Position numbers and translations under genes: made by a program. The notes under the pieces are model-generated. The model worked only from the letters and a program-made list of their open reading frames with translations. It made no database searches and had not been told where the DNA came from. Below, piece after piece: positions 8,526-62,582 of a stretch of 64,000 bases of DNA. Source of the DNA: an uncultured Rhodopila sp. Its GTDB lineage: Bacteria; Pseudomonadota; Alphaproteobacteria; Acetobacterales; Acetobacteraceae. Where the stretch lies: positions 1 through 64,000 of the forward strand of contig NZ_CAIWTY010000033.1 in assembly GCF_903915725.1 (NCBI RefSeq). The letters run 5' to 3'. Each line of letters opens with the position of its first letter. Within the stretch, counting starts at the first letter, position 1.

Positions 8526-10004
8526 ATGTCGTCACATGTGAAGGCCCCGCCGATCGCTTCGATAGCCGGGGCGGATGCACGGCTTTACAATCATGACCTG
8601 GCGCCGGCGGCGCCCGAGGCGCGGACCTGGGGCGTGTTCAGCCTGCTGGCGATGTGGATGTCGGATGTTCATTCCGTCGGCGGCTATACCTTCGCCGCCA
8701 GCCTGTTCTTCCTCGGCCTGACCGGCTGGCAGGTGCTGATCTCCATGCTGATCGGCATCATGGCGGTGTATTTCCTGATGAACCTGATCGGGCGTCCGTC
8801 GCTGCGCTACGGGATTCCCTATCCGGTCGTCGCCCGCATCGCGTTCGGCGTGATGGGCGCCAACCTCGCCGCCGTGGTGCGGGGCGTGGTCGGAATCGTT
8901 TGGTATGGCGTACAGACCTATTTCGCCTCGAAAGCGGTGCAGGTGCTGGTGGTGACGTTGATGCCGTCGGCGGCGGACTGGACGCATAACAGCATCTTCG
9001 GCCTGTCCTCGCTGGGCTGGTTCAGCTTCCTGTTCATGTGGTTCTTCCAGCTTGCGATTTTCCTGAGCGGCATGGAGCGCATCCGGCGGTTCATCGATTT
9101 CTGCGGGCCGGTGGTGTATGTGGTGATGTTCGCGCTGGCGGCCTGGATGCTGTGGCAGACGGGTTTCTCCAGCCTGTCGCTGCAGCTTGCGACTCCGCCG
9201 CCAACACCATCCGCGACGGTGGGCGTGATGGCGAACGCCGCGATGCTGATCGTGGCGTATTTTGCGGCACTGCTGCTGAATTTCGGCGATTTTGCCCGCT
9301 TTGGCAGAGATGAGGCGGCGATGAAGGCGGGCAATTTCTTCGGCCTGCCGGTGAACTTCCTGGTGTTTTCCATTATTGCCGTGATCGTCACTGCCGGAAC
9401 GTTGAAGGTATTCGGCCAGGCGATCATGGATCCGGTGCTGATTGTCGAGCGTATCGGCAATCCGGTCGTCGTTATCGTTGGATCAGTAACGTTCATCGTG
9501 GCGACGATGGGGATCAACATCGTGGCAAACTTCGTGTCTCCTGCCTACGATATCGCCAATCTCTGGCCGGAACGCATCAATTTCAGGCTGGGCGGGTTGA
9601 TCACCTCGATCCTTTCGGCGCTGGTGTGCCCGTGGCTTTTCGTCGCCAGCCCGCAGGCGATCACGCTGTTCGTCAGCATCTTCGGTTCGGTGCTCGGACC
9701 GATGTTCGGCATCATCGTCGCCGACTATTACCTGGTGAAACGCCAGCAGATCGCGGTCGGGCAACTCTATACCATGTCGCCAACCGGGGATTTCTATTAC
9801 GACGGCGGCTGGAATCGGGCCGCGCTTCTGGCTCTCGGCGGGGCCGCTTTCCTGTCCATCGGCCTGGCGCTGTTGGGCGCGTACGGCTCGGCCATCAATG
9901 TCGGCGATTGGGGCTGGCTGATCGGAGCGGCCGCGGGTGCAACGCTGCATTGCGGACTGTCGGGTGTTTCGCCGCGCGCGGTGATGGCCGGCGCCGGCGA
10001 ATGA
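8526..10004 (+). CDS. NCS1-family nucleobase/allantoin:cation symporter
   Basis: A 492-residue inner-membrane protein with about 12 transmembrane segments. NCS1 features are the early NHDLAPAAPEARTWGVFSLLAMW block, GIPYPVVARIAFGVMGAN, WYGVQTYFASKAV and a late MFGIIVADYYLVKRQ. Proteins of this family import uracil, allantoin, hydantoins, cytosine or related compounds with Na+ or H+. The next two genes belong to urate breakdown, so a purine or ureide substrate is likely (inference). The ATG at 8526 follows AGCAAGGAGCCGCCG. Confidence 0.88.
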   Translation: MSSHVKAPPIASIAGADARLYNHDLAPAAPEARTWGVFSLLAMWMSDVHSVGGYTFAASLFFLGLTGWQVLISMLIGIMAVYFLMNLIGRPSLRYGIPYPVVARIAFGVMGANLAAVVRGVVGIVWYGVQTYFASKAVQVLVVTLMPSAADWTHNSIFGLSSLGWFSFLFMWFFQLAIFLSGMERIRRFIDFCGPVVYVVMFALAAWMLWQTGFSSLSLQLATPPPTPSATVGVMANAAMLIVAYFAALLLNFGDFARFGRDEAAMKAGNFFGLPVNFLVFSIIAVIVTAGTLKVFGQAIMDPVLIVERIGNPVVVIVGSVTFIVATMGINIVANFVSPAYDIANLWPERINFRLGGLITSILSALVCPWLFVASPQAITLFVSIFGSVLGPMFGIIVADYYLVKRQQIAVGQLYTMSPTGDFYYDGGWNRAALLALGGAAFLSIGLALLGAYGSAINVGDWGWLIGAAAGATLHCGLSGVSPRAVMAGAGE

Positions 10005-10020
10005 CGTCAAACACCAGGAA

Positions 10021-10257
10021 GGGGATGCCGACGGGCGCAACGCGGAGCCGTTGCTGACGGCGGAAACCATCAAGGTCGGGCAATACCAGTTGGTCTTCCA
10101 TATCGCCGAGTATTTTGCCCGGGTTGGCAGCGTCCTGCCCGATCCGCCGTTTCTCGACCGCGCGGTTATTCAGTTCGGTATCGCCGATGCCGATTCGCAC
10201 TATCACGTGCCGCTGCTGGCGTCGCCATGGAGCTACACGACCTATCTCGGCAGTTGA
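10021..10257 (+). pseudogene. 5'-truncated 5-hydroxyisourate hydrolase (transthyretin-like)
   Basis: The frame reads GDADGRNAEPLL, then YQLVFHIAEYFAR, LPDPPFLDRAVIQFGIAD and HYHVPLLASPWSYTTYLGS before a stop. This is the C-terminal two-thirds of HIU hydrolase, ending in the family's SPWSYSTYRGS-like tail. The N-terminal third, with the THVLD block and its catalytic His, is missing. The frame instead runs back into the end of the NCS1 gene. There is no ATG and no ribosome binding site. Either a deletion joined the two genes or a shortened protein starts at TTG 10051. A pseudogene is more likely. Confidence 0.7.
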
Positions 10258-10272
10258 TGGAGGATGTGCAGG

Positions 10273-10854
10273 ATGTTTCGTCGAGGATTGCTGGCGCTGG
10301 CGCTTGGCCTTGTGTTGGCCGGGCCCGCGGCGCTGGCGGCCGAACCGGACATGGCGGCGATCAATGCCATGGACCGCGCCGCCTTCGTCGAGAAGTTCGG
10401 CGGGATTTTCGAGAAGTCGCCGTGGGTGGCCGAGTCTGCGTGGGACAAGAAACCCTTTGCCACCATCGACGACATGCATGCGGCGATGGTCAATGTGGTG
10501 AAATACGCGCCGTTGCCGAGCCAGCTTAGGTTATTGCAAAACCATCCCGATCTGGCCGGCAAGGAGGCCGCGGCCGGTGCCATGACGGCATCGTCCGTCT
10601 CCGAGCAGGCGAGTGCAGGGCTGAATGCCCTGTCGAAAGCGGAAATGGGCCGGATTTCGGAGTTGAATGCCGCCTACAAGCAGAAGTTCGGCTTTCCGTT
10701 CATCATCGCGGTGCGCATGCACACCAAGGAGGGGATCTTTTTCGACTTCGCGCGCCGTCTGCAGAACGACACCCAGACCGAGTACGCCAACGACCTGCAG
10801 AATGTCTATGCCATCACCCGCTTGCGGCTGGACAAGCTGCTGAGCGGGAGCTGA
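10273..10854 (+). CDS. OHCU decarboxylase (UraD family) with N-terminal signal peptide
   Basis: A 193-residue protein. After a clear signal peptide (MFRRGLLALALGLVLAGPAA, cut near ALA-AEP) comes a full OHCU decarboxylase domain: SPWVAESAW, NHPDLAGKEA, the S-x2-EQ-x2-AGL block, LNAAYKQKFGFPFIIAV and a terminal helix. UraD converts 2-oxo-4-hydroxy-4-carboxy-5-ureidoimidazoline to S-allantoin. The active-site His and Glu blocks are retained. Most family members are cytosolic, so export is unusual. The ATG at 10273 has GGAGG at a good distance. An ATG at 10264 would be too close to it. Confidence 0.85.
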   Translation: MFRRGLLALALGLVLAGPAALAAEPDMAAINAMDRAAFVEKFGGIFEKSPWVAESAWDKKPFATIDDMHAAMVNVVKYAPLPSQLRLLQNHPDLAGKEAAAGAMTASSVSEQASAGLNALSKAEMGRISELNAAYKQKFGFPFIIAVRMHTKEGIFFDFARRLQNDTQTEYANDLQNVYAITRLRLDKLLSGS

Positions 10855-10965: not shown

Positions 10966-12180
10966 ATGACACCGACTCGCCGGACCCTTCTCGGCGGCGC
11001 CGCGGCACTGACGCTTGCGCCGCGCCGCGCCCGTGCCCGCACGAAGATCACCATCGGGGTGCTAACCGACCTGTCCGGCACCTATCGCGACAATACCGGG
11101 CCGACTTCGGTGGCGGCGACACAGCTTGCCGTCGATGAGATGAAAGCCCACCTCGACTGTGAGGTGGAGGTGATCGCGGCGGACCATCAGAACAAGCCGG
11201 ATGTCGCCGCCTCCATCGCGCGGCAATGGTTCGACGGCGGCGTGGATGTCGCGGCCGACGTGCCGACATCCTCGGTGGCGCTGGCGGTGGCGCAGGTGGC
11301 CCGGGAGAAGGACAAGCTGATGCTGAACGCATCGGCGACGGTCGCTTCGCTGACCGATGCGCAGTGCAGCCCCAACACCGTGGTCTGGAGCTTCGACACC
11401 TACGAAAACGCCCATTCGACCGGCGGCTCGCTGGTCACGCAGGGATTCAAGTCGTGGTATTTCATCACCGCGAACTATGCCTTCGGCCAGTCGCTTGAGG
11501 ATCTGACAGCCGAGGTGGTGAAACAGGGCGGCGGCGAGATCAAGGGATCGTCGCGCTATCCGTTCCCGGACACCACCGATTTCTCGTCCTATCTGGCGCA
11601 GGCCCAGGCCAGCGGCGCGACCGTGGTGGGCTTCGCCAATGCCGGGCTGGACACCGAGAACTGCATCAAACAGGCGGCGGAGTTCGGCCTGAACAAGACC
11701 ATGAAGCTGGCGCCGCTGCTGATGTTCATCCAGAATCCGCACGCGCTGGGGCCGCAGATTTGCGGCGGCCTGTTGACGACGGAGACGTTCTACTGGGACC
11801 TGAACGACCGCACGCGGACCTTTACGAAAAAACTGCTGGCGCGGACCAAGGCCGATAACCATCCCAACCAGGCGCATGCCAGCTCGTACGGCTCGACGAT
11901 CCACTACCTGAAGGCGGTCGCGGCGCTGGGCGGGGCGGCGGCGAAAGCCAGTGGCCGGGCGGCGGTGGCCAAGATGAAGGAGCTGCCGACGGATGACGAT
12001 GCGTTCGGTCCCGGCCGGGTGCGCGCCGATGGCCGCGGCGAATTCCCGGCCTATTTGTTCCAGGTAAAAACGGCCGAGGAAAGCAAGGGCGCGTGGGACC
12101 TATACAAGCTGGTCCGCACCACGCCGCCGGACGGCGTGCTGCATCCGCTCAATGCGAAGTGCAATTTTCCGGTCGGGTGA
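10966..12180 (+). CDS. ABC transporter substrate-binding protein, LivK/branched-chain type
   Basis: A 404-residue periplasmic type I binding protein. It starts with a twin-arginine-like signal (TPTRRTLLGGAAALTLAPRR) and then IGVLTDLSGTYRDNTGP, typical of the LivJ/LivK/amide-urea group. Further family blocks are ADHQNKPDVAASIARQWFD and SWYFITANYAFGQSLEDL. No livHMGF genes are adjacent. Its place after the ureide genes suggests amide, urea or amino-acid capture, but this is inference only. Confidence 0.85.
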   Translation: MTPTRRTLLGGAAALTLAPRRARARTKITIGVLTDLSGTYRDNTGPTSVAATQLAVDEMKAHLDCEVEVIAADHQNKPDVAASIARQWFDGGVDVAADVPTSSVALAVAQVAREKDKLMLNASATVASLTDAQCSPNTVVWSFDTYENAHSTGGSLVTQGFKSWYFITANYAFGQSLEDLTAEVVKQGGGEIKGSSRYPFPDTTDFSSYLAQAQASGATVVGFANAGLDTENCIKQAAEFGLNKTMKLAPLLMFIQNPHALGPQICGGLLTTETFYWDLNDRTRTFTKKLLARTKADNHPNQAHASSYGSTIHYLKAVAALGGAAAKASGRAAVAKMKELPTDDDAFGPGRVRADGRGEFPAYLFQVKTAEESKGAWDLYKLVRTTPPDGVLHPLNAKCNFPVG

Positions 12181-12181
12181 G

Positions 12182-12582
12182 TCAGTCGTTTATCGCGGCG
12201 GCGACGGCGTCCTGAAGCTGCCCTTCGCCGAGCGGCTTGAACAGCACGCGTGCCGGGTTTGCGGCTGGATGCGGGCGATGGTGGGGGAATCGCGCGATCC
12301 GGTGATGAAAATCACTTTTGATCCGACTGTTTCCCGGATGGCGATGGCGGCGTCGATGCCGTCGCGCCGACCTTCGAGGCGGACATCCATCAGGACGACT
12401 TTGGGGCGGAACTGCTGCGCGAGGGTGATCGCGGCATCGGCGGTCTTGGCGATGCCGCAGACCTCGAGCTGCATATCCTCCAGGATCATGCACCAAAGTT
12501 CAGCGATCAGTATCTCGTCGTCGACAACCAGGATGCAGTCCTGCAGGCCGGTCATCGCGGCTTCGGCGGCGTGGGCGATCAT
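12182..12582 (-). pseudogene. CheY-like response-regulator receiver, frameshifted near the C-terminus
   Basis: The main frame has ILVVDDEILIAELWCMILED, the phosphoacceptor block VVLMDVRLEG and the switch strand VIFITGSRD. It then becomes nonsense after ARIQ near 12270. Moving by one base gives AANPARVLFKPLGEGQLQDA and a natural stop at 12182. That restores the conserved Lys-Pro and last helix of a single-domain receiver of about 125 residues. A one-base deletion explains it, either real or a sequencing error. No kinase gene is next to it. Confidence 0.75.
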
Positions 12583-13413
12583 TGATGCGTGGCCCCAATG
12601 AAGGGGGAGGGCGTCTTGCCGATGCGCGACGAATGGGCGGGTCGCGCGTGGATCGCGGTCAGGTTGCCGGGGCGGTTCCGCTTGTGCCGTAGCGAAATGA
12701 AAGCATCGCGCCCGCCTGCGCTCCGGATCGAGATCATTATGCGGACCGATGAACCAGCCGGTAGAGATCGGCGTCGGTCGACGCTCTCGGCGGGTCTCAT
12801 TCCGGCGTTGGCGGCAAGCGTGTTACCTGGTCTCATTTGTAGCCTTCTATCGTCCCCTTGGCGGTCTCGCGGTCCGGGGAATTATGTAGGTATGATCAGC
12901 AAGGTTTGGGAAATGCCCAGCTTTCGGCGGGTCCGTCAACGTTCTTCGGAGCAGATTTGGCGGGATTCTACGTTGCCAAAACATATCATCAGGATTCTGC
13001 CGGTCGGCTCGCGGACATTATGATTTTGTTTGTATCAAAATTGATTACTTATGCACGAGTGTGCAACGGTTTGAGACGAACGTGCATACCGGGGCCGATG
13101 ATTGCGATGCTGTTTGCAGCGGCTCTGTTTGCTGGTGCCACACGGCTTTGCAGGTGTGCGGATAACGTCCGCGTTTGACGCAGAGTTCGCCGAGCGGGGC
13201 GCAGAGGGCGCAGAGAAGAATTTTTTTGGCTTCGCCGGGGGCATCTGGCCGCGCGGTAACGCGTCCTCTGCGTGCTCTGCGCCCCGCTCTGCGAACTCTG
13301 CGTCGAAACGCGGACGCAAAAACACAGAGCGGCTGCTGGCCATCATCGACCGGCGGCAACCTCGGGCTTACGCTGATGCCTACGCCGCCTGGCCAATCAT
13401 CGAACGGTTGCCA
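12583..13413. other. Intergenic region with a large palindrome
   Basis: Apart from the inverted repeat at 13169-13313 I find nothing recognisable. The open frames here show no protein-like features. The stretch from about 12890 to 13080 is clearly richer in A and T than the surroundings. Confidence 0.5.
13169..13313. repeat. Long inverted repeat with 49-bp arms
   Basis: The arms 13169-13217 and 13265-13313 are close reverse complements. They share GACGCAGAGTTCGC and GAGCGGGGCGCAGAG, and about 47 bases including a T-run lie between them. The CGCAGAG words resemble those of the palindrome at 192-345, so the two may belong to one family. It is non-coding; a MITE-like element or RNA hairpin is possible. 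Confidence 0.7.
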
Positions 13414-53655: not shown

Positions 53656-53669
53656 GTTCCGCCCTGTAC
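53656..53669 (-). promoter_or_regulatory. VnfA-like activator site upstream of the ABC transporter
   Basis: Read on the minus strand this is GTACAGGGCGGAAC. It has the same GTAC-N4-CGGAAC pattern as the site at 61661 and matches the kind of sequence reported for Azotobacter VnfA (GTAC-N6-G(A/T)AC). It lies about 95 bases before the -24 element at 53764, a normal distance for a sigma-54 activator. A weaker GTAC-N6-GTGA follows at 53686. Confidence 0.6.
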
Positions 53670-53763
53670 AAACATCCCCGCCTGCGTACATCGCTGTGAT
53701 ATCCCGGACATAACGCCCGCATCCGGGCGGCCCGGGTCCGCGGGCAAGAATGCTTTGCCGGGC

Positions 53764-53779
53764 TGGTACGCTTCCTGCA
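53764..53779 (+). promoter_or_regulatory. Sigma-54-like promoter of the ABC transporter
   Basis: TGGTACGCTTCCTGCA keeps the essential GG and GC with exactly ten bases between them. It differs from TGGCACG-N4-TTGC at two positions. It lies 113 bases before the chosen ATG of the ATPase gene. Confidence 0.5.
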
Positions 53780-53891
53780 CATCGTCCACCTGACAATGAT
53801 CCACTTACCCGCCCCGACATCCGTCCGTTGTTTTGGCCCGGCTCCTCTGGCGACCCGCGCCGCGCCGCTGCAGCGCTATGAGCATCCGGAC

Positions 53892-54647
53892 ATGGCGTCC
53901 TACCCGGCTGCAACCGTTACGCTTGATCGCGTAACGCTGAAACGAAACGGCCGAGCCATCCTCAGCGACCTCAGCCTGAGCTTCCTGCAAGGCACCATCA
54001 CCGCCCTCGTCGGCTGTTCGGGCGTCGGCAAATCCACGCTGATGGGGGCACTGAACGGCCTGATCGCTCCCGCCGCCGGCAGCATATCCATCGCCGGAGC
54101 CGGGCGGCTCGACGATGCCAGGTCATTGCGCGAAGCCCGCCGCGGCACCGCAACGATCTTCCAGGACCACGCCCTGATCGACCGCCTGCCGGCGATCGAC
54201 AACGTGCTGCTGGGCCTGGCCGACATGCGCCACCCGCTTTCGCCTTTGCCATGGCCGAAGTCGTTCCGCATCCGCGCAGCCGTCGCGCTCGACGAGGTCG
54301 GCCTGCTCGGCCGCGCCACCGCCCGCACCGGCCAGCTTTCGGGTGGAGAGCGCCAGCGCGTCGGTATCGCCCGCGCCCTGGTCCGCCGCCCGCGCCTCCT
54401 GTTGGGCGACGAGCCGTTCGCCTCGGTCGACCCGGTGCTGGCGCGCCAGCTCGGCGCAACGTTCCGCAGCCTTGTCGTGCGCAACGGCCTGACAGTCATT
54501 CTGGTTCTGCATCAGATACCCCTCGCGCGCACCCTGGCGGACCGCATTGTCGGCCTGGCCGATACGCGGGTGGCCTTCGACGGCCCCGCAACAGATTTCG
54601 ATTCCGAAGCCGAGGGCGCGGTGTTTTCCGCCGCACCTGCAGGATAA
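53892..54647 (+). CDS. ABC transporter ATPase, PhnC-like; proposed vanadate importer
   Basis: A 251-residue ATPase: Walker A VGCSGVGKSTL, Q-loop TIFQDHALIDRL, signature LSGGERQRVGIARALVRRPR and Walker B LLLGDEPFASVDP. It is closest in plan to PhnC of phosphonate transporters. ATG 53892 opens VTLDRVTLKRNG, the usual first strand; the frame extends to 53796. The binding protein and permease follow directly. A sigma-54-like promoter and VnfA-like site upstream and the vnf genes downstream suggest vanadate, a phosphate analogue, as substrate (inference). Phosphonate or phosphite import is the alternative. Confidence 0.85.
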   Translation: MASYPAATVTLDRVTLKRNGRAILSDLSLSFLQGTITALVGCSGVGKSTLMGALNGLIAPAAGSISIAGAGRLDDARSLREARRGTATIFQDHALIDRLPAIDNVLLGLADMRHPLSPLPWPKSFRIRAAVALDEVGLLGRATARTGQLSGGERQRVGIARALVRRPRLLLGDEPFASVDPVLARQLGATFRSLVVRNGLTVILVLHQIPLARTLADRIVGLADTRVAFDGPATDFDSEAEGAVFSAAPAG

Positions 54648-54658
54648 AGGTCCACGTC

Positions 54659-55543
54659 ATGTCCAGCCGACTCAGCCGCCGTCTCCTCCTCACCGCCCCG
54701 CTGCTCGCCGCGCTGCCGCTGCAACGCGCCGCGGCACAGGATCGACCGAAAAAGCTCGTCGTCGGCTTGCTGCCAGGGGAATCCGCGCCGACGGTGATGC
54801 GCCTGAACGAGCCGTTGCGCCTGTACCTGGAAAAGCGGCTTGGCCTCCCGGTCGAACTGGCCGTCGGCGCCGACTATGCCGCGACCGGTGAGGCGCTGCG
54901 CTTCGGGCGGCTCGACATCGCCTTTCTCGGGCCGGTGACCTATATCCTGCGCTCTCGCAGCGCCAAGCTGGAGCCGTTCGCCCGGCCGTCCCACGCCGTT
55001 GTCGGGCCGACCTTCACCGCGGTGGTTATCGTGCCGGCTGATAGCACGGCGCAGACCTTGGCCGACCTGAAGGGCGGCGAGGTGGCGTTCGGCGATCCGG
55101 CGTCAACGTCCGGCACCTGGGTCCCGCGCTACCAGTTGCTGCGCGCCGGCCTGGTGTCCGGTCGCGACTATACGCTGCGGGTGCTGGGGGCGCACGATGC
55201 GGTGGCTCTGGCAGTGGCGAACCATCGCGTGGCGGCCGGCGGTCTGTCCCAGCCGGTCTACGCGCGCCTGCTGAAGGAAGGCAAGATCGATCCCAAGGCC
55301 GTGCGGGTGCTGGAACAATCCCAGCCGATACCGGAATACATGTGGACCTTCCGCCAGGGCATCGACCCGGCGTTCAAGGAGGAGGTCCGCCAGGCCTTCA
55401 TCCATGTAGACGACCCGGCGGCGCTGAAGGTTTTCAACGCCGAAGCCTTCATCCCCGCCGTCGATTCGGATGTGGACCGGGTGCGCGGCTGGATCGCCGC
55501 GATCCAGGCCGCCAATCCCGATGCGGTCCCGCCGCCGGTATGA
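54659..55543 (+). CDS. ABC transporter periplasmic binding protein, PhnD-like; proposed vanadate-binding
   Basis: A 294-residue exported protein with signal peptide (MSSRLSRRLLLTAPLLAALP, cut near AAA-QD). The PhnD-type core has LVVGLLPGESAPTVMRLNEP, LELAVGADYAATGEALRFGR-type strands, LDIAFLGPVTYILRSR and GEVAFGDPASTSGTWVPRYQ. The Ser/Thr-rich loop SxSGT is where PhnD-family proteins grip the oxyanion. Vanadate would fit the same site; this is the proposed substrate from context. It overlaps the permease start by 4 bases. Confidence 0.87.
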   Translation: MSSRLSRRLLLTAPLLAALPLQRAAAQDRPKKLVVGLLPGESAPTVMRLNEPLRLYLEKRLGLPVELAVGADYAATGEALRFGRLDIAFLGPVTYILRSRSAKLEPFARPSHAVVGPTFTAVVIVPADSTAQTLADLKGGEVAFGDPASTSGTWVPRYQLLRAGLVSGRDYTLRVLGAHDAVALAVANHRVAAGGLSQPVYARLLKEGKIDPKAVRVLEQSQPIPEYMWTFRQGIDPAFKEEVRQAFIHVDDPAALKVFNAEAFIPAVDSDVDRVRGWIAAIQAANPDAVPPPV

Positions 55544-56358
55544 GCGCGACCGCACCCGCCGGCATCGAGGCCATCCTCGCCGATGGCCGCCGCCGGCTGT
55601 ACGGCAGTGTCCTGTCCGGCGGCGCGGTCCTGCTGGTGGTCATCAGCGCCTTCGCCTACGGCGACGCTTTCGACCTGCATCGTTACGGCGACGCGTTGCC
55701 AACGATGTTGCAGTTGGCGAAGGACGCCATGCCGCCGGACTTCAGCCGCTGGACCCAATGGGGGCGGCCTTTGCTGGAAACCCTGGCCATGAGCGTCGCC
55801 GGCACCGCTTTGGCGGTCTGCGCCGCCCTGCCGCTGTCGGCGCTGGCCGCGCGTAACGTGGTTCGCCAGCCCTGGTTGGGAGAGCCGGTGCGGCTGATGC
55901 TGAACGGGATCCGCTCGATTCCAGGGCTGATCTGGGGGGTGATCTTCGTCGCGGCGGTCGGATTCGGGCCGCTGCCCGGGATACTGGCGCTGGCGACCCA
56001 CAGCACCGGGATGCTGGCCAAGTTGTTTGCCGAAACGTTGGAGCATGTCGATCCAGGCCCCGGCGATGCGATGCGCAGCCATGGTGTTTCCCGTCCGGGC
56101 GTGCTGCGCTTTTCAGTGCTGCCGCAGATCATGCCGCGCCTGGTGGATGTGACGCTTTACCGCTGGGAGCACAACCTGCGTGCCGCGACGACATTGGGCG
56201 TGGTCGGGGCAGGGGGATTGGGGCTGGAGATCATTACCGCCTTCCATCTGTTCGAATACCGGGAAGCGTCAGCGCTGATCATCGTCCTGCTCGGGCTGGT
56301 GACGTTCATCAACGTGGCGGGCGGGTTGCTGCGGGGGCGGTTCCTGGCCGGTGGGTGA
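55540..56358 (+). CDS. ABC transporter permease, PhnE-like; proposed vanadate importer
   Basis: A 272-residue inner-membrane protein with about six helices. PhnE features are GRPLLETLAMSVAGTALAVC, LNGIRSIPGLIWGVIFVAAV, the ABC-contact loop ETLEHVDPGPGDAMRSHGVS and RAATTLGVVGAGGLGLEI. The ATG at 55540 overlaps the binding-protein stop (ATGA). Its last 50 bases overlap the convergent modE-like gene. With the two upstream genes it forms a complete importer. Confidence 0.87.
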   Translation: MSATAPAGIEAILADGRRRLYGSVLSGGAVLLVVISAFAYGDAFDLHRYGDALPTMLQLAKDAMPPDFSRWTQWGRPLLETLAMSVAGTALAVCAALPLSALAARNVVRQPWLGEPVRLMLNGIRSIPGLIWGVIFVAAVGFGPLPGILALATHSTGMLAKLFAETLEHVDPGPGDAMRSHGVSRPGVLRFSVLPQIMPRLVDVTLYRWEHNLRAATTLGVVGAGGLGLEIITAFHLFEYREASALIIVLLGLVTFINVAGGLLRGRFLAGG

Positions 56359-56779
56359 CGCGCGTTTGCTTCTTGACCGAGCAGTCGGCCGAACCCATAT
56401 CCGTTTCGTCGGCGTCGCAGGTGTTCTGCTGCCGCGCGGAGGCAGGCGCCAGAAGCAGGGTCAGCGCATCGACATCGCTTGCGAACATGATGCGTGCTTT
56501 GGTTTCCATCGACCGGAAAATGTCCAGCACCGCCCGGCCGGTCGGGGTCAGCGAGGCACTGCCGCCGCGCCGGCCGCCGATGATCCGGGTGACCAACGGT
56601 TCGCGAAAATGCCCGTTCATGCTTTCCAGGAGTTTCCAGGCGTTCGGATAGGCCATGCCCATCGTTCGAGCCGCGGCGGCGATGGAACCCTGGCGATCGA
56701 TACCCTCCAGCAACGCGATCTTGCCGGGGCCGATCAGCGGGGGGATGCGCACCTGGACGCTGAGATCCGGTTCGGCCAT
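56309..56779 (-). CDS. ModE-like DNA-binding protein without molybdate-binding domains
   Basis: A 156-residue protein. Residues 1-115 are the winged helix of ModE (GPGKIALLEGIDRQGSIAAA, MGMAYPNAWKLLESMN, LVTRIIGGRRGGSASLTPTG). The C-terminal Mop (TOBE) domains that bind molybdate in full ModE (about 260 residues) are absent. Instead there is a tail with Cys residues (CDADETDMGSADCSVKK) and a basic, Pro/Thr-rich end. It sits between the transporter and the vnf genes, convergent with the first. It may repress vnf or transporter genes when Mo is present; how it would sense metal is unclear. Confidence 0.82.
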   Translation of the reverse strand: MAEPDLSVQVRIPPLIGPGKIALLEGIDRQGSIAAAARTMGMAYPNAWKLLESMNGHFREPLVTRIIGGRRGGSASLTPTGRAVLDIFRSMETKARIMFASDVDALTLLLAPASARQQNTCDADETDMGSADCSVKKQTRVTHRPGTAPAATRPPR

Positions 56780-56883: not shown

Positions 56884-57375
56884 TCAAACCTCTTGCTCGT
56901 CCAGCGCCAGCCGGAGCCCGTCTGAGTCGCGCATGACGCGGCGCATCCACAGCGGCGGCACGCCCTTCATCAGGCGCTGCACATTGGAAATGACCTCGTC
57001 GATATCGCGTATCGTGGCGCTCATCACCGGGAAGATCTTCAGCGCATGGATGCGGAAGGCGGCGAGGTCGCTGAGACCGAGCGTGAACAGAACGGAGCAA
57101 CCCTTCAGCGCATCGACCCGGTCCACCAACGGATCGCGGCCGGTACCGTCGTCGTCGCCCATGTCGTCCATGATGCAGGTGCCAAGGTCCTTGCCCAGGC
57201 CGCCGCCGGGACCTTTCTTGGCCATTCCGCCGGGACTGAAATGGATCACGTCCACGAATTCCGAGCTGTCCCGGGTGACGTCGTAAAACACCACCTGCCT
57301 GGCGGCGGCGAAATTCGCGTCAACCTGGATCAGGCTGTTCGTGGTGACGGCGATACGAAGATGCGGGGCATCCAT
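56884..57375 (-). CDS. NifX/VnfX-like nitrogenase cofactor protein
   Basis: A 163-residue protein of the NifX/NafY/NifB-C fold (dinitrogenase iron-cofactor biosynthesis): LRIAVTTNSLIQVDANFAAA with Gln/Asp and Asn/Phe replacing the usual His-Phe-Gly, QVVFYDVTRD, a DALKGCSVLFTLGLSDLAAF strand-helix and a C-terminal PPLWMRRVMRDSD like that of NifX. Such proteins carry FeV-co precursors to apo-nitrogenase. It is the last gene of the vnfDGK run, 18 bases after the 297-residue unknown. vnfX is plausible, but the exact orthology is not proven. Confidence 0.75.
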   Translation of the reverse strand: MDAPHLRIAVTTNSLIQVDANFAAARQVVFYDVTRDSSEFVDVIHFSPGGMAKKGPGGGLGKDLGTCIMDDMGDDDGTGRDPLVDRVDALKGCSVLFTLGLSDLAAFRIHALKIFPVMSATIRDIDEVISNVQRLMKGVPPLWMRRVMRDSDGLRLALDEQEV

Positions 57376-57393: not shown

Positions 57394-58287
57394 TCAGGTC
57401 ATTGGTTGGTTGATCGCCGCGACCTCGCGCCCGAAGCGCTGCCGGAAGCTGGCGGGCAAAGTGATGCCGTCCGGGGTGCGGGCGCGCCATTTGTCCAGCT
57501 CCGCCATCGGCAGAGCCGCGTCGGTTAGCGCCTCGACCGGAATGATGTAGAGAACATCGCGGTGAACAACGAAAAAATCGATCGGATACAAGGTCGCATC
57601 GCGATACAGCGGGCTGATTTCGATCTGAAGGAAATCGCCTTCGATTTCGGTCTTCGGATTGTCGCAATCGAAACGGGCATGCCGGTTGAAGCGGCCGGTG
57701 CGGCGGAATTGATAGAGGACGCGGTCCTCATCGAAGAAGCGCTTCAGCTCGCCGGTGATGTCGAAGAAATACTGCGACAGCATCGCGGCGACATAGGCTT
57801 CCGGGTATGGCTGGCGCAACGACTCCAAATAGTAAGCCGTCGCGGACTCCAGCAGCACCAGGCCGATCGGCGTGATCGCCAACTGCAGGGCCAGCTTGTG
57901 AACGGTGCCGTTGAACCAGATGATCCCGTCTTCGAAGGTCACGCGGCCTTGCGGTGTAAACGCCACCGACCAGGCCACGCGGAGGATACGGTAAAGCTCG
58001 GCCGCCACGCGTTCGCTCATGCTGCCTCGCGGCATCGCGGCCGCACGCTGCCATGTCGTTTTGCCGTCGGAGTCAGGGGTGCGGGACTGCACATACGAGT
58101 CCAGCACCGTGAAGGCGCTGAAAACCCCGCGCAGCTCGTCCGCGATGAGATCCTGTTGCTGGTCGTCGGCAGCGAAGGTCAGGGCCCTGCGTTTCGTATA
58201 GAGTTCGATCTGCCGGTATTCCGGCAATGACAAGCGGCGAATCGAGCCGTTGGTCGAACCGGTTAGCAGGTCGTGCAGCTTTACCAT
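57394..58287 (-). CDS. Unrecognised protein in the vnf operon, 297 residues
   Basis: A soluble 297-residue protein, not recognised. It has a helical N-terminal half (LPEYRQIELYTKRRALTFAA, RVAAELYRILRVAWSVAFTP) and a beta-rich C-terminal half (LYPIDFFVVHRDVLYIIPVE). There are few Cys (no Fe-S motif), no signal peptide and no membrane helix. It lies between vnfK (64 bases upstream) and the NifX-like gene (18 bases downstream), so it is probably made only with the V-nitrogenase. A role in VnfDGK assembly, in place of the AnfO/AnfR proteins of Fe-nitrogenase operons, is a guess. Confidence 0.65.
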   Translation of the reverse strand: MVKLHDLLTGSTNGSIRRLSLPEYRQIELYTKRRALTFAADDQQQDLIADELRGVFSAFTVLDSYVQSRTPDSDGKTTWQRAAAMPRGSMSERVAAELYRILRVAWSVAFTPQGRVTFEDGIIWFNGTVHKLALQLAITPIGLVLLESATAYYLESLRQPYPEAYVAAMLSQYFFDITGELKRFFDEDRVLYQFRRTGRFNRHARFDCDNPKTEIEGDFLQIEISPLYRDATLYPIDFFVVHRDVLYIIPVEALTDAALPMAELDKWRARTPDGITLPASFRQRFGREVAAINQPMT

Positions 58288-58351: not shown

Positions 58352-59752
<1,401 letters not shown>

Positions 59753-59769
59753 TCATTACAAAGTGACGC

Positions 59770-61674
<1,905 letters not shown>

Positions 61675-61690
61675 GAATGGCCAGGGAAGA

Positions 61691-61704
61691 GTACACGCCG
61701 GTGC
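61691..61704 (+). promoter_or_regulatory. VnfA-like activator site (B)
   Basis: GTACACGCCGGTGC is one base from the symmetric pattern GTAC-N6-GTAC. The following GCGGAAC at 61704-61710 gives a further partial site. It lies between the divergent vnfD and NifX-glyoxalase promoters. Confidence 0.5.
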
Positions 61705-61736: not shown

Positions 61737-61752
61737 TGGCACGGAGGTTGCG
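61737..61752 (+). promoter_or_regulatory. Sigma-54 promoter of the NifX-glyoxalase/Nif11 genes
   Basis: TGGCACGGAGGTTGCG is a perfect match to TGGCACG-N4-TTGC. The ATG of the fusion gene lies 38 bases downstream, after CCACGGAGGTCCCTCC, which contains the ribosome binding site. Confidence 0.88.
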
Positions 61753-61790: not shown

Positions 61791-62582
61791 ATGTCCATCG
61801 ACACGATCGAAAAACCACAAGCCGTCACGACAACCCTGCGGATTGCCGTCGCCAGCAAGGATGACATCCGCATCGACCAGCATTTCGGCCACGCTGAATC
61901 GTTCCTGGTATACGATGTCGCCGCCGATGGCGTCACGCCGCTCGGCCGCCGTGAAATCGCCGCCCACGCCGAGGGTGAGGACGAGGACCCGCGCCAGACC
62001 ATCCTCCGCATGCTCGCCGACTGCAAAGTCCTCCTTGTCGCCAAGATCGGCCCTAATCCGCAACAACAGCTTTCTACTGTCGGCATCGAGGCCTCCGACA
62101 TGCTGGCGGGCAAGCCGATAGAAACGGCGCTGGAAATGACGTTCGCGGCAAAAAACGTGGATCATGGCAGTTCGGCCGTGGATGCCTCAACGTTTCGCCT
62201 GATGCATGCGATGCTGCGGGTTAGCGATCTCGACCGAGCCTTGGAATTTTATACCACCCAGTTGGGCATGCAGGTGCTGGAGCGCCGCGACCACAAGAAG
62301 AACCAGTTCTCCCAGGCGTATATCGGTTACGCGGACGGATATGCACAGATGACGCTGGAGCTGGTGTCGAACTGGGATCACGAAGGGCCGTATTCCGACG
62401 GCGAATCGTTCGGCCACATCGCCATTCAGGTCCGCGGCATTACCGCGCTGTGCGACCGCCTGTCAGCCGCCGGTGTAAAGATGCCTCGCCCGCCGCGCGC
62501 CCAGCGCCACGGCGAAAATATCGTCGCCTTCATCGAAGATCCGGACGGTCACCAGATCGAACTGGTGCAAACACCCAACTAA
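61791..62582 (+). CDS. NifX-domain/glyoxalase I-domain fusion protein
   Basis: A 263-residue cytoplasmic protein with two domains. Residues 14-118 are of the NifX/NifB-C fold (LRIAVASKDDIRIDQHFGHA with the cofactor-handling HFGH, FLVYDVAADG, CKVLLVAKIGPNPQQQL). Residues 135-263 form a complete glyoxalase I-type domain. Its four metal ligands are in place: His139 (LMHAMLRVSD), Glu190 (MTLELVSNW), His209 (FGHIAIQVRG) and Glu257 (GHQIELVQ). A perfect sigma-54 promoter and VnfA-like sites precede it. It may carry cofactor precursors; what the glyoxalase part does in nitrogen fixation is unknown. Confidence 0.85.
   Translation: MSIDTIEKPQAVTTTLRIAVASKDDIRIDQHFGHAESFLVYDVAADGVTPLGRREIAAHAEGEDEDPRQTILRMLADCKVLLVAKIGPNPQQQLSTVGIEASDMLAGKPIETALEMTFAAKNVDHGSSAVDASTFRLMHAMLRVSDLDRALEFYTTQLGMQVLERRDHKKNQFSQAYIGYADGYAQMTLELVSNWDHEGPYSDGESFGHIAIQVRGITALCDRLSAAGVKMPRPPRAQRHGENIVAFIEDPDGHQIELVQTPN

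Follow-up and report, generated by a model that had tools for sequence, protein, structure and literature searches.

A VodABC-type transporter, probably for vanadate, beside the vanadium nitrogenase genes of a Rhodopila-like genome

In a Rhodopila-like genome of 6.7 Mb, three plus-strand genes at 53796-56358 of the window (contig C33, positions 1-64000, the whole 64-kb stretch that was analysed) encode first an ATPase, then a binding protein of the PhnD family and last a permease of the PhnE type. We assign this trio as the VodABC system of the genome, with vanadate as its probable ligand, and put the probability of this reading at about 0.9. The trio has a complete gene set, belongs to the VodA/VnfZ protein group, is linked to vnf genes and carries conserved upstream sites. 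Vanadate is proposed as the ligand by analogy with RPA1385, a protein of the same kind (PMC3223731), and control by VnfA is suggested by a motif match. According to the proposed mechanism, the periplasmic binding protein VodA would capture vanadate, the permease and ATPase would carry it inward for the synthesis of the vanadium cofactor, and vodABC would be turned on jointly with vnfDGK by VnfA and the sigma-54 RNA polymerase via the upstream tandem sites.

Transporters of this type are already in print (PMC3223731, PMC4465626, PMC9542535; here and below, statements on cited papers refer to the available parts of their text). The novelty that the first-pass annotation had implied for a PhnD-type vanadate transporter therefore fails, and the window trio is a new member of VodABC. 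For the COG3221 protein RPA1385 from Rhodopseudomonas palustris, high-affinity vanadate binding in a thermal-shift screen was reported in 2011; the same paper gives RPA1381-1386 as annotated as a vanadate nitrogen fixation system and describes the protein as misannotated as a phosphonate system (PMC3223731). Six genes come after vnfDGK in both Azotobacter genomes, among them VnfX and a phosphonate/phosphite-type ABC transporter for which vanadate was suggested (PMC4465626), and Avin_02540-02560 of Azotobacter vinelandii were named vodA, vodB and vodC (PMC9542535). The available part of a review on vanadium in bacteria (PMC13102585) mentions neither RPA1385 nor vup and contains nothing on a PhnD-type vanadate transporter. 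VupABC of Anabaena variabilis resembles the proposed VodABC function in importing vanadate for V-nitrogenase, but is a transporter of another type, as the first-pass annotation had stated: PMC4284476 describes it as closest to tungstate transport genes and as missing in both A. vinelandii and R. palustris.

The window system is like that of RPA1385 in having a COG3221 (PhnD-type) binding protein in a vnf region (PMC3223731). This likeness, and with it the placing of VodA as the RPA1385 kind, was judged by orthology via another R. palustris record (L043), whose binding protein is 78-83% identical and whose three transporter genes also lie beside vnfDGK. Vanadate binding has been reported for RPA1385 (PMC3223731), whereas the copy in the Rhodopila-like genome is known from its sequence. 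The window likewise resembles the A. vinelandii vodABC region in combining the transporter trio with vnfDGK, an uncharacterised protein and VnfX (PMC9542535); in G752, which we take to be A. vinelandii, the binding protein is 71-73% identical and the three transporter genes lie beside vnfDGK (locus L095). There the transporter is co-directional behind vnfDGK, whereas in the window it lies on the opposite strand with upstream sites of its own.

The transporter genes and their vnf neighbourhood

The first-pass annotation had described an ATPase, binding protein and permease set next to a ModE-like gene and vnfDGK, and Pfam and NCBIfam matches confirmed this arrangement.

53796..54647, + strand: ATPase of PhnC type; PF00005 (ABC_tran); TIGR02315 at 188.5 bits, below the PhnC cut-off of 266.1; start codon uncertain
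54659..55543, + strand: substrate-binding protein VodA (PhnD superfamily), 294 aa; PF12974 at 2.5e-64; TIGR01098 above cut-off
55540..56358, + strand: permease of PhnE type; BPD_transp_1; TIGR01097 at 276.3 bits, above the cut-off of 216.7
56309..56779, - strand: ModE-like protein, DNA-binding part only; TIGR00637 at 74 bits, below the cut-off of 98.5
56884..57375, - strand: NifX/VnfX-like protein; PF02579; TIGR02663 at 84 bits, below the cut-off of 112
57394..58287, - strand: conserved vnf-cluster protein, 297 aa, conserved beside vnfK
58352..59740, - strand: vnfK; TIGR02932 at 893.1 bits, above the equivalog cut-off of 873.95
59770..60123, - strand: vnfG; TIGR02930 at 159.4 bits, above the equivalog cut-off of 141.7
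60120..61538, - strand: vnfD; TIGR01860 at 992.8 bits, above the equivalog cut-off of 823.1
61791..62582, + strand: NifX/NifB-tail domain fused to a glyoxalase domain; PF02579 and PF00903
63211..64000, - strand: vnfA-like sigma-54 activator, 3' part; PF00158 and PF02954; its 531-aa frame runs past the window (frame list of L103)

The binding-protein and permease genes overlap by 4 bases, and the N-terminus of VodA resembles a signal sequence as judged by eye. The ATPase start is uncertain: an in-frame ATG stands close behind the -24/-12 element in L039 and L040, two loci labelled Rhodopila, and in the window (53796, a distance of 17 bases), and the leader that follows is of variable length. 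PF12974 was the sole Pfam match of the binding protein. Its NCBIfam scores fell below cut-off for the PhnD equivalog model (188 bits against 261.1) and for the putative selenate importer model TIGR04553 (128.3 bits against 250). The same genome has three further PhnD-like proteins, 29-32% identical to VodA.

On the opposite strand, the ModE-like gene overlaps the end of the permease gene and was seen, besides the window, only in L039 and L043 among the loci compared. The 297-aa protein, kept beside vnfK in most of the vnf loci compared, gave zero matches in Pfam and NCBIfam searched at 0.001. Relatives of the NifX-glyoxalase fusion, 62-65% identical over most of its length, occur in the vnf clusters L042, L043, L045 and L102. 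Past the window edge, two frames resemble vnfE and vnfN by eye, the second scoring 147 bits to TIGR02932; a NifK-like gene (assignment inferred) on contig C13 of the same genome scores 281 bits to that model.

VnfA-type sites and -24/-12 elements

The VnfA1 motif was published as GT(T/A)C-N6-GTAC, with two motifs at similar spacing in most promoters of that study (PMC9542535). The corresponding sites and elements of the window are as follows.

53656..53669, + strand: VnfA-type site GTTC-N6-GTAC, exact to the motif of PMC9542535, with a half-site GTAC-N6-GTG 30 bp on (53686)
53764..53778, + strand: sigma-54 type -24/-12 element, TGGTACGCTTCCTGC, 1 mismatch
61592..61606, - strand: -24/-12-like element of vnfD, 1 mismatch
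61661..61703, + strand: tandem VnfA-type sites in the interval between vnfD and the 61791 gene, with the same spacing (30 bp) as at the transporter
61737..61751, + strand: -24/-12 element ahead of the 61791 gene, the sole perfect match in the window

Exact VnfA-type sites number three in the 64 kb (35083, 53656 and 61661) against 0.74 expected, a count reached in 7 of 100 shuffles. The tandem form, with the second half-site 30 bp on, occurs within the window at 53656 and 61661 only, which bears out the earlier observation that the site at 53656 matches one in the vnfD promoter region; a loose form of the tandem appeared in 0 of 300 Markov models, the pattern having been set after the pair was seen. 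The -24/-12-like element noted earlier at 53764 is present, and both it and the VnfA-type site are kept upstream of the orthologues in L039 and L040. By itself, however, this element does not rise above chance: sites with at most two mismatches number 106 in the window versus 116 expected, and because of this count the element alone was set aside as evidence.

The 450 bp ahead of the ATPase start, as aligned, were scanned in 25 loci, namely that of the window (L103), 17 of 20 relative loci and seven vnf loci of the G696 family; L055, L057 and L058 were left out because they have no such ATPase. An exact VnfA-type site was found upstream of the ATPase in 10 of the 25, against a background of 0.071 per 460 bases taken from all 408,415 bases of the scanned loci, promoters included (binomial 4e-6, with the relatedness of loci ignored). 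The transporter is co-directional behind vnf genes in 11 loci, among which L100 also has an exact site. Counting against the proposed reading, neither an exact site within 450 bp nor co-directional placement was found in five (L041, L042, L043, L047 and L048); in L047, however, three exact sites lie farther out, at about 490-580 bases upstream. The region upstream of vnfD, used as a positive control, carried an exact VnfA-type site in 14 of 16 scannable loci.

Occurrence of VodA and VnfK across genomes

A scan of genome contigs for the binding protein returned 20 loci at 61-97% identity from 19 genomes, L052 and L051 lying in the same bin. The closest named relative is L039 (97%), labelled uncultured Rhodopila sp. 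In 11 of the 20, the locus also contains VnfD at 80% identity or above (two of these copies partial, at a locus end), and L057 and L058 are VnfZ-like, not transporters. TIGR02932 was matched at 1e-120 or better in 17 of the 19 genomes, with 14 above 873.95 and three just under it (868.6, 866.5 and 865.3). Close relatives in genomes lacking vnf, which the first-pass annotation had named as counting against a vanadate importer, were thus confined to two exceptions, the metagenome bins of L049 and L055, in which a VodA-like protein was present with no VnfK detected. The L049 contig ends about 0.7 kb beyond the permease. L055 carries tandem VodA-like binding-protein genes (8790-9698 and 9905-10816) with no adjoining PhnC/PhnE-type partners.

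The first of three surveys covered 385 genomes of the class: VnfK was found at 1e-150 in G000 and G340, and 13 genomes had a binding protein at 1e-30, with 100% identity in G000 and at most 50% in the other 12. In the family of G696 (198 genomes), VnfK occurred in seven genomes, all with the binding protein at 70-76%, and the other 30 genomes matching at 1e-50 were all at 44% or less. Among 16 Rhodopseudomonas genomes (the genus of G683), one had VnfK above cut-off, and its VodA is 82% identical; seven with AnfK-range scores alone (747-753 bits, AnfK being inferred from the score) gave no VodA match, and one with neither VnfK nor an AnfK-range score holds a 43% relative. Pooled, a binding protein of at least 70% identity was present in 9 of 10 VnfK genomes, the window copy included, versus 0 of 589 others (Fisher 4e-19), where the best relative reached 50%. 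In these figures the survey centres G000, G696 and G683, picked for having the gene, are counted, the class and genus samples might overlap by a few genomes, and the boundary between VodA and the rest was drawn from the results. The co-occurrence with vnf for which the first-pass annotation had suggested a genome comparison was thereby found. In a search of the order, outside the three surveys, VnfK above cut-off occurred in 1 of 299 genomes, the window's own.

A further point against the reading is G340, the VnfK genome that lacks the binding protein at 1e-30: the transporter is also absent from 14 kb of its vnf contig. This stretch (L102, G340:C115:1-14000) contains vnfDGK and genes for a 297-aa-type protein, a NifX-like protein and a vnfA-like protein, with no VodABC found; two minus-strand genes at 362-1039 and 1372-1845, beside the NifX-like gene, encode membrane proteins, one of them ZIP-family-like by eye.

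Among 72,556 plasmid protein records, the 1092 that matched were all below 60% identity, so that, at the sensitivity of this search, these plasmids carry no VodA of 60% or more. The closest plasmid relative is a VnfZ-like protein still annotated as phnD. L059, from an Azotobacter chroococcum plasmid, was set aside: it groups with VnfZ and has no PhnC/PhnE-type partners. Its orphan VnfZ-like gene (12058-12888) lies beside iron-chelate transporter genes, and no vnfA-like gene is annotated within the 25 kb shown, for which the gene table is incomplete.

Binding-protein group, pocket residues and ligand

In a tree of 61 binding-protein rows, VodA and VnfZ (34 of 61) were set apart from the PtxB-type group by a branch with 100/100 support and a length of 1.68; the program flagged long branches, this one among them. 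When 13 distant rows were removed, VodA and VnfZ (34 of 48) were again split from the PtxB-type group at 100/100. The VodA rows alone did not form one side of a branch in the 61-row tree (two changes), and two rows classed as other, L028 and L029, were placed inside the PtxB-type group. The label PtxB-type was assigned by 41-50% identity and grouping, L110 being the only member observed beside a phosphonate dehydrogenase. Eight identical PtxB-type rows were removed before the residue count and the tree, leaving 14 of 22. L095-L104 (proteins already used) and L004 (under the E 1e-10 cut) were left out of the rows; L112 and L113 are later additions. VnfZ shares the protein group of VodA, with copies at 59-63% in six of the seven VnfK genomes of the G696 family in addition to VodA, but VnfZ of A. 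vinelandii (Avin_47110) is reported to have no signal peptide and to act in regulation together with VnfA3 (PMC9542535).

PtxB binds phosphite by an STS-H cage, Tyr94 and a capping Tyr, with Asp16 holding the cap (PMC5700983). Transferring PtxB numbering by alignment via the PtxB-type row L080, we found the cage and capping Tyr retained in 26 of 26 VodA rows. The Asp16 position was Gly in 24 and Thr in two of these rows, and Asp in 14 of 14 PtxB-type rows; the Tyr94 position was Phe in all 26, and Tyr in 14 of 14 PtxB-type rows. All eight VnfZ rows have Gly and Phe at these positions, and the window VodA has G40 and F119. VodA thus shares fold, cage and cap with PtxB but is without its Asp latch and hinge Tyr, and the loss of these two residues may set the specificity of VodA. 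A predicted VodA model (mean pLDDT 84.3, pTM 0.76), which served for fold matching and not pocket geometry, had PtxB as its best structural matches (39-41% identity).

These likenesses speak for a rival reading, in which the trio would import phosphite (as PtxABC) or phosphonate (as PhnCDE) and lie beside vnf by chance. PtxB was likewise nearest in PDB sequence searches, the nearest solved structures bind phosphite, the PtxB cage and cap are intact throughout VodA, and the PhnE model was passed. We nevertheless regard such an importer as highly improbable, since the PhnC and PhnD equivalog cut-offs were missed, VodA lies outside the PtxB-type group and is linked to VnfK, one PtxB-type plasmid copy instead adjoins a phosphonate dehydrogenase, and both PtxB residues are replaced in every VodA row. 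Pm_PhnD, however, also has Phe at the hinge and yet binds phosphite (PMC5700983), so that the change of Tyr94 to Phe alone leaves phosphite possible.

A system importing another oxyanion of nitrogenase metabolism, such as molybdate, or serving mainly as a vanadate sensor could be argued from the adjoining ModE-like gene and from the regulatory role of the related VnfZ in A. vinelandii (PMC9542535). This too seems very unlikely to us: the window VodA comes with a permease and an ATPase of its own, and its N-terminus looks by eye like a signal sequence; VodA is absent from the Rhodopseudomonas genomes with AnfK-range scores alone; and vanadate binding is reported for RPA1385 (PMC3223731). The best reading of the sequence is the one that the first-pass annotation had proposed, a probable vanadate transporter of PhnD type controlled by VnfA, given group membership, co-occurrence with VnfK, conserved sites and the vanadate binding reported for RPA1385 (PMC3223731).

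More tentatively, and with odds somewhat against it, VodA may derive from a PtxB-like phosphite-binding ancestor in which Asp16 to Gly and Tyr94 to Phe, with cage and cap kept, shifted specificity to vanadate, so that a sequence rule would mark vanadate binders in any genome.

With the window trio, a Rhodopila-like genome joins the holders of VodABC, here with VnfA-type upstream sites of its own and not behind vnfDGK. A clear protein group together with a residue rule would aid the annotation of vanadium use and make the switch from phosphite to vanadate testable.
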